32,922 nucleotides of DNA, taken from NCBI GenBank assembly GCA_003152995.1, contig PMBR01000076.1, positions 1 through 32,922 on the forward strand, written 5' to 3'. Of the stretch, positions 1,333 to 13,831 are shown one piece after another (positions within the stretch are counted from its first letter, which is position 1; every line of letters starts with the position of its first letter). The position numbers were made by a program, and so were the translations under genes. The notes under the pieces are model-generated. The model saw only the letters and a list, made by a program, of their open reading frames with translations, ran no database searches and was not told the origin of the DNA. The DNA is from Chloroflexota bacterium. GTDB taxonomy: Bacteria > Chloroflexota > Limnocylindria > Limnocylindrales > CSP1-4.

Positions 1333-1338
1333 TACGAT
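1333..1338 (+). promoter_or_regulatory. Possible -10 element for the helicase leader
   Basis: TACGAT fits a TAnnnT -10 hexamer and lies upstream of three consecutive hairpins and the DEAD-box gene. No convincing -35 is visible 17 nt upstream. If used, the 5' leader would be about 155-160 nt. Confidence 0.35.
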
Positions 1339-1363
1339 GAACCGCGTAATCGCTGTTTCGGAC

Positions 1364-1455
1364 ACGCTGCAGCAGCGTCTGTCGCCGGCATGCCACATGG
1401 GTGCCGGCAACCTATCACCGAGAGCGCCGTCAGCGCGGGACCCAATCCGTCCCGC
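1364..1455 (+). promoter_or_regulatory. Structured leader with three hairpins before the helicase
   Basis: Three separate inverted repeats follow one another: ACGCTG/CAGCGT (1364-1369/1373-1378, 3-nt loop), GCCGGCA/TGCCGGC (1384-1390/1402-1408, 11-nt loop) and GCGGGAC/GTCCCGC (1435-1441/1449-1455, 7-nt loop). None is followed by a T-run, and the ribosome-binding site at 1491 is left free. Cold-shock RNA helicase genes in several bacteria have long structured leaders with autoregulatory roles. Applying that here is an inference, and it matches no riboswitch class I recognise. Confidence 0.4.
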
Positions 1456-1502
1456 CAGGCCCGATCGGACTCGCGTCAGATGACGCAATCAGGAGCAATC
1501 GT

Positions 1503-5295: not shown

Positions 5296-6528
5296 TCAGA
5301 ATTCCTGAGGGCACCAGGGCGCAAGAGCCGTGCGGAAGAGCGCATCCGCAGCTGCGAGTCCGCCGGGTTGCAGTTGAGCGACTCGGCCGGCGGCCGCCAG
5401 AGCCGTGGCCCCGAACCCTCCCAGGAAGACAGACGCGAGATCGGCCGCGTCCAGCGCCAGATCGGCCGCGCTTTCGGTTCGTGTCACGCGTGCCCGGCCA
5501 CCGGATGCCTCGAGACTCCAGCGGCCCGCGTTCCAGGGGCAGTATTCGTCACGCAGTTCGAACGTGAGCCGGCCGTTGCCGCGGCCGTCCATGCCGTAGA
5601 TCCGGCCCTCGAGAGCCGCGGCTGTGTCCACGATGCGAAGCCAGAGCCCATCGCCCACGGTCGTGCCCAGACGTCGAGGCTCGGCGGCGAGAGCGAAGAG
5701 CGGGTGGTCCGACGGCAGGCGCCAGGTCTTGAGGGTTCGGACCAGATCTACCTCCAGCAAGTAGCGCCAGATCTCACGGGTCCCACGCGGCGTGCAGGCG
5801 ATCGCCTCTTCAACGGTCAGCGTCGCGCCCGGGCCCCGAGTGCTCCACTGCCCCTTGATCTTGTAGACGGCATATGCCTCCGGTCCGTCGGAGGTCTCGT
5901 ACACCACCAGCCGACGGGCCTCGCCGCCCTTGGAGTCCTTCTCGACGAGCGGCAGAATGCCGGCCCACCAATCCGGCGTGCGAGCCAGGAAACCGGCTCT
6001 TCCAGCTCGGGCCGACTCGTAAACCCGGGCCACGAGCTCCTGCCCTTCGCCGGGCGGGAGCATCCGGAACGTGCCCTCTCGCGGCCATTCGCGGGCGAAG
6101 CCGACGGCCATGGTTTCGGCCTCGAGGTTCAGGCTGTACGTGGCCAGCCCGAACCCGAAGCGCTGATATATCGCACCCTCGGCCGCCCAGAGGGCCGCGA
6201 GCGGCTCACCGCGACGATGACAGTCGTCGATCATCATCCGCATCATCCCGCTCATCAGACCCTGGCGGCGGTGCGACGGCAACACCGTGACGAACGTAAT
6301 GCCACCGGTCGGCAGCTCGCCGCCGGGCACGCTGAGGCGCAGCGAGAATACGCCGCTGCTGCCCACGATACGGCCGTCGTCGAACGGCGCGAACCAGCGG
6401 TCCTTGTCTGCGACGCGCTCGACCCTGCCGATGAAGTCATCGGAAAGGTCCTCGCTGAAGCCGATTTCCGATGTCTTGAGCAGCTCGACGAAACGATCCG
6501 GAGGGCAGGGGCGAACTTCGACGCTCAT
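5296..6528 (-). CDS. Eis-like GNAT N-acetyltransferase
   Basis: A 410-residue protein with the layout of the Eis (enhanced intracellular survival) family: an N-terminal GNAT domain, a second GNAT-like region and a C-terminal SCP2-like domain. The acetyl-CoA loop is VTVLPSHRRQG (about 80-90). Tyr121 in AIYQRFGFG matches the general-acid tyrosine of mycobacterial Eis. The protein ends in Phe, as in Eis, whose terminal carboxylate acts as general base. Family members acetylate amines of aminoglycosides, peptides or proteins; the substrate here is unknown. The ATG at 6528 shares ATGA with the stop of the upstream hydrolase gene, so the two are translationally coupled. As last gene behind an exporter, it may inactivate a toxic amine. 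Confidence 0.85.
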   Translation of the reverse strand: MSVEVRPCPPDRFVELLKTSEIGFSEDLSDDFIGRVERVADKDRWFAPFDDGRIVGSSGVFSLRLSVPGGELPTGGITFVTVLPSHRRQGLMSGMMRMMIDDCHRRGEPLAALWAAEGAIYQRFGFGLATYSLNLEAETMAVGFAREWPREGTFRMLPPGEGQELVARVYESARAGRAGFLARTPDWWAGILPLVEKDSKGGEARRLVVYETSDGPEAYAVYKIKGQWSTRGPGATLTVEEAIACTPRGTREIWRYLLEVDLVRTLKTWRLPSDHPLFALAAEPRRLGTTVGDGLWLRIVDTAAALEGRIYGMDGRGNGRLTFELRDEYCPWNAGRWSLEASGGRARVTRTESAADLALDAADLASVFLGGFGATALAAAGRVAQLQPGGLAAADALFRTALAPWCPQEF

Positions 6529-7406
6529 GGCGCCAATCTTGACAGAGGCGCGGGAAGATGGGCTCGGAGCCACTCGACGACCTGCGCGACCACCTGCGGC
6601 CCCTCTGGCTCGTTCAAGGTTTCGTGCCGCAGACCCGCGAGAACACGGCGTTCCACGCCCGGTACGCCAGCCAGCGGCTCGCTTACCTGGGTCGGGACAA
6701 GCGTATCGGCGCCGCCATGTATGACGAGAGTCGGGACGTGGAGGCGGTCGAGGTCCGTCCGACCGCGCTTCATGGCCTTGAACAGCTCGGCGCCCAGGCG
6801 GGTCGTCGAGCGCGGCTGGACCAGCGGGTCGGCGAAGTAGGCCGTGCCCACGGCGGGGTCGTGAGACAGCTGGTCGCCGGCGATCGGGTTGGCCAGGATC
6901 ATGATCGGAGCCAGACGGCTCAGGACGGGGGCGAGGGCGCGCTGCCAGCCGGGGACGCGGGCATCGAGCGGCGGCGCGCTCAGGACGAGCAGATCCGGCG
7001 CGAGGCGGTCCGAGCAGGCATAGGTAAGCGCGATGAGCGCGCCCATCGAATGCCCGAGCAGGACGAGCGGCCGGCCCGGCTCGCGAACCGCGGCCAGCCG
7101 GCTCGCCACATCCTCGAGGAAATCGTCCCATGTTCGGACGTAGACACGCCGGCCCCCGGAGAGCCCGTGGCCGCGAATGTCGAAGGCGTGGACGTCGAGC
7201 CCGGCTTCGGCCAGAAGTCGCCCGGTTCGCTCGTATCGGCCGCTGTGCTCCCCGATGCCGTGAACGATGAGGACCGTCGCCCACGGCTCGCCGGCGGGCG
7301 CCCAGTGGCGCACGTGGAGCGGTGTCCCATCGGCGCCGGGTGCCGTTGAGCCGGACATCGTCTCGGCTGCCGAAGGCTTTGTCGGTCGCCCGGCCGGAGC
7401 CGCCAT
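6525..7406 (-). CDS. Alpha/beta hydrolase (monoacylglycerol lipase/S33-like)
   Basis: A 293-residue serine hydrolase of the Hydrolase_4 / monoglyceride-lipase group. VLIVHGIGEHSGRY gives the oxyanion segment, GHSMG carries nucleophile Ser120, and Asp234 (GGADTLVP) and His261 (LRHETLNE) complete the triad. No signal peptide is present, so a cytoplasmic or membrane-associated esterase or lysophospholipase is likely. The ATG at 7406 is preceded by GGAGG (in complement of 7412-7420). It follows the ABC permease by 62 nt, and that gap has a minus-strand TAAGAT (complement of 7444-7449) that could be an internal promoter. It overlaps the acetyltransferase start by ATGA. Confidence 0.88.
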   Translation of the reverse strand: MAAPAGRPTKPSAAETMSGSTAPGADGTPLHVRHWAPAGEPWATVLIVHGIGEHSGRYERTGRLLAEAGLDVHAFDIRGHGLSGGRRVYVRTWDDFLEDVASRLAAVREPGRPLVLLGHSMGALIALTYACSDRLAPDLLVLSAPPLDARVPGWQRALAPVLSRLAPIMILANPIAGDQLSHDPAVGTAYFADPLVQPRSTTRLGAELFKAMKRGRTDLDRLHVPTLVIHGGADTLVPTQVSEPLAGVPGVERRVLAGLRHETLNEPEGPQVVAQVVEWLRAHLPAPLSRLAP

Positions 7407-12717: not shown

Positions 12718-12893
12718 CGATGGGCTCCTATGCCGGAGGGGCGCTGCCTCGCGTCCTGGCGTTCGGTGCTGCGCCGACCCTGACCGTATCACTGTTGCGT
12801 TGGACACGAACGAACTGGCCGGCGGCCGTTGCGCGACCCGCACACGGACACACGAGTTTGCAAAACGACTGGTGCTCGCGCCGGGGCGGCGGG

Positions 12894-12899
12894 TATGCT
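12894..12899 (+). promoter_or_regulatory. Possible -10 of the proline-rich protein gene
   Basis: TATGCT matches a TAnnnT -10 hexamer 65 nt upstream of the start at 12965. No clear -35. It sits in the 247-nt divergent region upstream of the oxidoreductase gene. Confidence 0.3.
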
Positions 12900-12964
12900 C
12901 CGCTGAGTCACCACGGATGTTTCTTGGGCCGGATCGTCAGGCTCCGCACACAAGAGAGGATCGG

Positions 12965-13831
12965 ATGGACCCCTCCGGATACGGTCAGAAGCCCCCTACT
13001 CCGCCGCCAGACTGGTCTCAGCCCAGCCAGACGCCACCTCCGCCGCCAGACGGGTCACAGCCCGGCCAGACGCCACCTCCGCCGCCAGACTGGTCACAGC
13101 CGGGCCAAACGCCACCTTCGCCGCCAGACTGGTCTCAGCCCGGCCAAACGCCACCTCCGCCGCCGGACTGGTCTCAGCCGGGCCAAACGCCACCTCCGCC
13201 GCCAGACTGGTCTCAGCCGGGCCAGCCGGGTCCATATGGCCAGCCCGGTCCATATGGCCAGCCGGGCCAGCCCGGTCCTTATGGCCAGCCGGGCCAGCCC
13301 GGTCCATACGGCCAGCCGGGTCCATATGGCCAGCCCGGCTTTGGCCAGCCCGCCGGCATGTGGGCCGCCCCGCCACCTGTCCGGCGCTCGCGCCTGCCGC
13401 GGATAATCGCGGTTGTCGTAGTGCTGGCGCTTCTCGCAGGCGCCGCTCTCTTTGTCCTGGGCAACATGCAGGTCCCGGACGCGGGCAAGGTGGTCTTCTC
13501 GACCGACAAGCCGGTTGCCGGTCAGAGCAGCGGCTGCAAGGTCGACCATCAAGTGACATCGGTTTCGGCGGGTACGTCCGTCTACGCCACCTACATCTTC
13601 TCGGCCAAGCAGGGCTCCGACGTGGTCTCGATCACCGTCACCAAGGACGGCAGCCCGTTCCTGCCCGCAACAGCAATGCAGACGAGCGACACGCAGGGAT
13701 ACAACTGCTTCGCCGACACCTCGGACCTGAGCCAGATCCCCTCCCTGCCCTTCGACGCGGGGTCTTACAAGTTCACTCTGACTTCAGGGAACAACACGAT
13801 CTCCGAGGGAACGCTCACCGTCACCCCGTAA
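12965..13831 (+). CDS. Proline-rich repeat, single-pass membrane protein
   Basis: A 288-residue protein in three parts. Residues 1-128 are cytoplasmic and made of repeats: 13-residue units of the TPPPPPDWSQPGQ type, then PGPYGQ units. A basic patch (PPPVRRSRLPR) precedes one transmembrane helix (IIAVVVVLALLAGAALFVLG, about residues 145-164). The outside part of about 125 residues, beginning VPDAGKVVFSTDKPVAGQSSGCKVDH, is beta-rich with a likely disulfide (GCKV/YNCF). ATG 12965 follows AGAGAGGA. Proline-rich cytoplasmic tails of this kind occur in actinobacterial and Chloroflexota signalling or envelope proteins, often as protein-binding or condensate-forming tails. Function unknown. Confidence 0.8.
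   Translation: MDPSGYGQKPPTPPPDWSQPSQTPPPPPDGSQPGQTPPPPPDWSQPGQTPPSPPDWSQPGQTPPPPPDWSQPGQTPPPPPDWSQPGQPGPYGQPGPYGQPGQPGPYGQPGQPGPYGQPGPYGQPGFGQPAGMWAAPPPVRRSRLPRIIAVVVVLALLAGAALFVLGNMQVPDAGKVVFSTDKPVAGQSSGCKVDHQVTSVSAGTSVYATYIFSAKQGSDVVSITVTKDGSPFLPATAMQTSDTQGYNCFADTSDLSQIPSLPFDAGSYKFTLTSGNNTISEGTLTVTP
13031..13225 (+). repeat. Five tandem 39-bp repeats in the coding sequence
   Basis: Five contiguous copies of a 39-bp unit beginning ACGCCACCTCCGCCGCCAGA (13031, 13070, 13109, 13148, 13187), with single-base differences, encode the 13-residue Pro-rich unit. A degenerate copy precedes them (about 12993-13030). Confidence 0.9.
13226..13349 (+). repeat. Tandem 18-bp-based PGPYGQ repeats
   Basis: A second repeat block built from CCGGGTCCATATGGCCAG-type 18-bp units, some with a 9-bp CCGGGCCAG insert. 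It encodes five PGPYGQ units and ends in PGFGQ. Confidence 0.85.

Follow-up and report, generated by a model that had tools for sequence, protein, structure and literature searches.

The means by which bacterial DEAD-box RNA helicases set their own level are known in few species. The Escherichia coli deaD mRNA is reportedly autoregulated through mRNA stability and Rho-dependent termination; there, as in the proposal made below, a DEAD-box helicase controls its own mRNA, although the protein is of the DeaD/CsdA type and not RhlE. In Synechocystis, CrhR autoregulates: expression of crhR depends on the helicase itself (PMC3485376). This case resembles our proposal in that dependence and differs from it in being linked to temperature and redox. 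For Caulobacter crescentus rhlE, the report describes a 186-nt stem-loop 5′ UTR that is required for full expression and that raised expression, probably via mRNA stabilization, together with rhlE fusions whose expression was higher in an rhlE mutant; it also describes bacterial DEAD-box helicases as often cold induced (PMC5472812). Like the locus described here, C. crescentus rhlE has a long leader with several stem-loops ahead of an RhlE helicase. Unlike it, the gene belongs to an alphaproteobacterium and was tested experimentally, and the two are likened by description and not by sequence or structure.

A structured leader upstream of an RhlE-type helicase gene

The window, by which we mean the whole 32,922-nt stretch of Chloroflexota DNA that was analyzed, is contig C120 of a 3.05-Mb MAG that is 73% complete. 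The features relevant to the leader (leader A) are as follows.

231 to 1301, + strand: glycosyltransferase gene (Pfam PF00534), ending 28 nt upstream of the extended −10
1330 to 1338, + strand: extended −10, TGGTACGAT, with TACGAT at 1333 to 1338
1348 to 1496, + strand: conserved structured leader, helicase 5′ UTR; covariance model R2 match of 170.6 bits (the window sequence is itself part of the R2 training set)
1364 to 1378, + strand: hairpin 1, ACGCTG-CAG-CAGCGT, 6-bp arms, loop of 3; sequence-conserved
1384 to 1408, + strand: hairpin 2, GCCGGCA...TGCCGGC, 7-bp arms, loop of 11; conserved loop region CCACATGGG
1418 to 1468, + strand: outer helix of hairpin 3 (1418 to 1421 with 1465 to 1468; 1427 to 1428 with 1458 to 1459)
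1435 to 1455, + strand: hairpin 3, GCGGGAC-CCAATCC-GTCCCGC, 7-bp arms, loop of 7
1473 to 1486, + strand: hairpin 4, GCGTC-AGAT-GACGC, from consensus folding; adjoins the Shine-Dalgarno sequence
1491 to 1495, + strand: Shine-Dalgarno sequence AGGAG; CAGGAG invariant in 16/16 relatives
1503 to 2762, + strand: RhlE-type DEAD-box RNA helicase P0001, 419 amino acids, TTG start at 1503 to 1505 (Pfam DEAD and Helicase_C)

The best NCBIfam model for the helicase is RhlE at 518 bits, under the 743-bit equivalog cutoff, and "RhlE-type" is therefore a fair name. Elsewhere in the window, one open reading frame (12800 to 13828) carries a collagen-like triple-helix repeat (PF01391), and a long one (5299 to 7284) combines GNAT domains with an SCP2-like domain, an arrangement found in Eis-type acetyltransferases.

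The promoter check found no consensus −35/−10 pair. The extended −10 pattern TGnTAnnnT is kept in 16/16 aligned relatives, and conservation of the leader transcript in their alignment starts about 10 nt past it. From these two observations the 5′ end is predicted near 1345 (about 1344 to 1346), which would place all of the hairpins within the 5′ UTR. An earlier note on this DNA had named a transcription start downstream of 1455 as fatal to its reading of the region; the start predicted from the conserved extended −10 lies upstream of the hairpins.

That note had reported three consecutive exact inverted repeats between a −10-like TACGAT and the helicase TTG. A search of positions 1333 to 1502 (arms of at least 6, loops of 3 to 12) returned exactly these three, at 1364 to 1378, 1384 to 1408, and 1435 to 1455. 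Dinucleotide shuffles of the region gave a mean of 0.52 and reached three in 0/500 cases; across the GC-rich window, at least three occurred in 1.7% of 3,276 stretches of 170 nt. RNA folding of 1340 to 1510 was stronger than that of shuffles (z = −2.13; 6/200 equally good), and the single-sequence z-scores of the A leaders were weak (mean, −1.3; range, −2.9 to +0.4). The consensus fold of the alignment reached a z-score of −3.41, with 1/200 column shuffles equally good, and the reverse strand folded less well (−27.0 versus −36.5). Consensus folding recovered the three hairpins and added hairpin 4 as well as an outer helix enclosing hairpin 3, both absent from the earlier note. The observation made in that note was right and understated. 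The four stem-loops stop 4 nt short of the Shine-Dalgarno sequence.

Covariation and conservation of leader A

The earlier note had looked to compensatory changes in relatives for a verdict on the structured leader, and such changes are present. Alignment A3 (MAFFT, not structure fitted) holds 16 genus sequences that span the whole leader with a mean identity of 82%; one further genus leader with undetermined bases (L019, genome G004) was omitted from all A alignments. In A3, 93.4% of the cells paired, compared with 30 to 45% when the 3′ partners were slid. Changes on both sides were seen in 5/35 pairs against a shuffled mean of 1.8 (1/500), the double-change cells numbered 8 against 1.9 (0/500), and the covariation score was 0.125 against 0.102 (0/500). 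The signal comes from hairpins 2 and 4 together with the helix that encloses hairpin 3. Most compensatory changes fall in the outer helix (C-G/U-G/U-A, U-A/C-G, and C-G/U-A); the second pair of hairpin 2 varies as C-G/U-G/U-A, and hairpin 4 shows a U-A to C-G change in L013 and L014. Hairpin 1 has no pair changed on both sides, and its pairing is broken in L010 and L013. When three divergent leaders were added and the resulting 19 sequences were fitted to the model, the percentage paired, the double-change cells, and the covariation score were still significant; both-side-change pairs (5 versus 3.1; 55/500) and further pair types (362/500) were not. The structure of leader A is well supported.

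A loop-loop contact noticed by eye, GGGU at 1399 to 1402 with ACCC at 1440 to 1443, is complementary in most of the 16 relatives. It is broken in L015 and absent in L133, shows no compensatory change, and competes with hairpin 2, and it is not claimed here.

The hairpins are GC rich and stable, and they might do no more than guard the 5′ end against nucleases or shield the ribosome-binding site from upstream read-through. A passive leader of this kind would agree with a Shine-Dalgarno sequence that is not specially hidden (see below) and with C. crescentus rhlE, whose 5′ UTR raised expression, probably by stabilizing the mRNA (PMC5472812). However, the loops and linkers of leader A (CCACATGGG and ACCCAATCCGTCCCGCC) are conserved equally with the stems, beyond the needs of passive stems, and we regard this explanation as rather unlikely.

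Distribution of leader A

Searches at the DNA level, covering 61 genomes and the full set of 21 examined for the genus, showed that the leader is preserved ahead of the orthologous helicase gene. Covariance model R2, built from 16 sequences, was run against 177 genomes of the class and detected the leader in 19/21 genus genomes and in G093 of the sister genus (79.5 bits), with one strong match per genome and always at the helicase; G004, G012, G016, and G093 lie outside the training set. The leaders of G012 and G016 retain chiefly hairpins 3 and 4. The R2 search found no leader in the other two genus genomes, G007 and G013. There were thirteen further matches in the 177 genomes (E values of 2.8e-4 to 0.046), one of them a second match in G016; their number is about what chance gives at the threshold.

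In most of the family's remaining genera, unrelated leaders precede the orthologue. Those of genera g7 (L134, L135, and L143) and g15 (L138 and L140 to L142) are alike within each genus and unrelated to that of the window; they are possibly further structured leaders. In three g28 genomes (L165, L167, and L169), a TATGCT seen by eye lies 8 to 9 nt before the GTG start of the orthologue, a spacing from which these mRNAs are probably leaderless, unlike those of the window's genus with their long leader. Since G007 and G013 lack the leader, other genera have different ones, and g28 looks leaderless, leader A is not essential to the gene. It is a lineage-specific trait.

Alternative readings of the conserved leader

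As the earlier note had recognized, leader A matches no known riboswitch family: Rfam 15 gave no match at gathering score in the whole window, and a relaxed search returned only subthreshold microRNA noise (E values up to 10). Conserved loops and the missing Rfam match are what a new metabolite riboswitch would show. Set against this, there is one strong copy per genome, at a single gene that encodes a helicase, and metabolic genes are not attached; we find the idea scarcely credible for the locus.

An intrinsic attenuator is likewise not supported, since no terminator hairpin with a U-run, and no other terminator-like site, occurs in 1240 to 1560, in keeping with the earlier remark that none of the hairpins has a U-tract. 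The predicted unpaired fraction of the Shine-Dalgarno sequence is 0.35, compared with 0.30 in shuffled leaders. Among 16 relatives, no conserved upstream reading frame or N-terminal extension was found; the extension is open in 8/16, and the frame and end of the upstream reading frame differ. With no terminator, upstream frame, or extension, and with Shine-Dalgarno pairing like that of shuffles, neither a simple attenuator nor simple masking of the ribosome-binding site is visible.

The earlier note had also suggested a cold-sensing leader, near a cold-shock gene. The neighborhood does not bear this out: there is no KWFN or GFGF-type match in the window, and Pfam found no cold-shock domain in its 29 open reading frames. 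Bacterial DEAD-box helicases are often cold induced (PMC5472812), and a leader that opens its ribosome-binding site in the cold would suit such a gene. Yet the predicted openness of the Shine-Dalgarno sequence falls with cooling (50°C, 0.41; 10°C, 0.27), as does that of the start codon, and it is no lower than in shuffled leaders, from which it does not differ. An RNA thermometer of the fourU or ROSE type is not supported, the Shine-Dalgarno sequence being not specifically paired and Rfam thermometer matches being none. Temperature sensing is therefore very unlikely.

Conservation might instead act at the level of DNA or protein, with hairpin 1 serving as an operator palindrome downstream of the −10 or with the region coding for a peptide or N-terminal extension. 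Hairpin 1 forms a nearly perfect palindrome that is conserved without covariation, and a start-like codon, NTG-GGT-GCC, lies in the loop of hairpin 2 (window position 1397 to 1399 onward) in 12/16 relatives, with no conserved peptide. However, with up to 2 mismatches allowed, the palindrome is present at the locus in 15/21 genus genomes and elsewhere only once; being almost confined to the locus, it marks no regulon, and the operator reading is rejected. The half-open extension and the varying upstream frame speak against coding, and the other helices covary. We hold these readings to be highly improbable.

The leader could also be the binding site of a trans-acting factor distinct from the helicase, such as a ribosomal protein, a cold-shock protein, or a small RNA. 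The conserved loops and the single gene target would suit such a factor, and ribosomal-protein leaders, too, have a single gene target. The leaders were compared with 16S and 23S regions from three genomes of the family, for 11-mers present in at least four leaders; a structural mimic could escape this comparison. One 11-mer was common to 4/19 leaders and one of three 23S regions, and rRNA mimicry is unconvincing on this showing. With the cold-shock gene also missing from the window, a separate factor appears unlikely.

A second leader precedes the paralogous RhlE gene

The genus carries a paralogous RhlE (group B; 55 to 60% identity), encoded in G000 on contig 48. Its upstream region contains a second structured element (element B).

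L173 (contig 48), 161 to 280, − strand: element B, G000 copy; further copies in L174 to L212 and L213 to L236

Forty upstream regions were picked from helicase matches; one is truncated at a contig end, and the element is present in each of the remaining 39. It extends from directly after the −10 to the Shine-Dalgarno sequence. The 5′ part comprises a GGGCGC-UCCGGUCn-GCGCCC hairpin, a CGGU/ACCG hairpin, and CCGAUCCCGAUCCAC; the 3′ part follows as GCCC-UGACCGG-CCCGC...GCGGG-n-GGGC and then CAGGAGC. Like leader A, element B is a structured leader that runs from just past the promoter to the Shine-Dalgarno sequence of an RhlE helicase gene; unlike leader A, it is class wide and has another sequence and fold. 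Homology of the two was considered and rejected: covariance model R1 of element B reached at best 16.1 bits on the A leaders of the genus (E = 0.22 in 118 kb).

R1 found element B in 95/177 class genomes, of which 56 had not been used in training. The 95 comprise 80 of the 107 genomes examined from the window's family and 15 of family f4. A search of 400 phylum genomes found it in 32, all within those two families. A search of the streamlined family f2 gave no credible match. Fourteen further match regions were read; in 2 the contig stops at the element, and the other 12/12, among them second copies from two f4 genomes, are followed by an RhlE-like helicase.

Fifty-five copies (34.7 to 120 bits) were aligned to R1. 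In this model-fitted alignment, 97.4% of the cells pair and 11/21 pairs show double changes, against a shuffled mean of 3.2 (0/500). The unfitted MAFFT alignment was weak, with 5 both-side pairs against 3.6 (112/500) and further pair types at 341/500. The consensus folding was matched by 0/200 column shuffles. The loop CCGGUC is complementary to GACCGG in the stem by the ribosome-binding site; both are nearly invariant and hence lack covariation, and they may form a pseudoknot. Predicted Shine-Dalgarno openness resembles that of shuffled leaders (0.22 versus 0.23). Element B is absent from Rfam, as judged from a joint search of nine to eleven loci of types B and A, and the literature searched contained no report of either leader.

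In G000, the paralogous RhlE (L247; contig 48, reverse strand) has a long Arg/Pro/Ala-rich C-terminal tail, which the window's helicase lacks. The two paralogues lie about 8 to 11 kb apart in G126 (contig 2; 23909 to 25078 and 35813 to 37057), G123 (contig 8), and G107 (contig 2), a proximity that suggests an old local duplication.

Discussion

Leader A is a genuine conserved structured leader and is new as a sequence family, although structured helicase leaders are a kind already known in principle. It forms a long structured 5′ UTR, with a predicted 5′ end, in cis to the helicase gene. We favor the reading that it serves feedback control of helicase expression through the helicase's own 5′ UTR, to which we give a probability of about one in two, because each genome carries the leader at one gene, a helicase, and because these leaders span the distance from promoter to ribosome-binding site. 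The systems of C. crescentus rhlE, Synechocystis crhR, and E. coli deaD described above are precedents for such feedback. Transcription would start just past the extended −10, with the first ~150 nt folding into the four stem-loops, which would set the helicase level posttranscriptionally. With little helicase present, the folded leader would persist and the mRNA would be stable, with one rate of translation; with plenty present, the helicase would bind or unwind the leader, or open it to a nuclease or Rho, and mRNA stability or translation would change. Unwinding capacity would thereby control its own supply. As the earlier note suggested, the helicase may remodel its own leader. Since the Shine-Dalgarno sequence is not more hidden than in shuffles, no simple on/off switch at the ribosome-binding site is visible.

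The class-wide leader of the paralogue is a more striking object than leader A. A different structured leader on the paralogous gene suggests that the principle matters for both enzymes and that the RNA solutions differ. We tentatively extend the feedback reading, as a doubtful but possible generalization, to both RhlE paralogues: each may be governed by an RNA sensor of helicase activity, the genus-specific leader A in one case and the ancient, class-wide, putatively pseudoknotted element B in the other, so that unwinding of a substrate-like fold would report capacity and reset synthesis. Two RhlE paralogues in one lineage thus carry distinct conserved leader folds, neither of them in Rfam and one of them class wide with covariation. 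Leaders A and B are defined single-target RNAs that offer a test of whether a helicase senses the activity it exerts.
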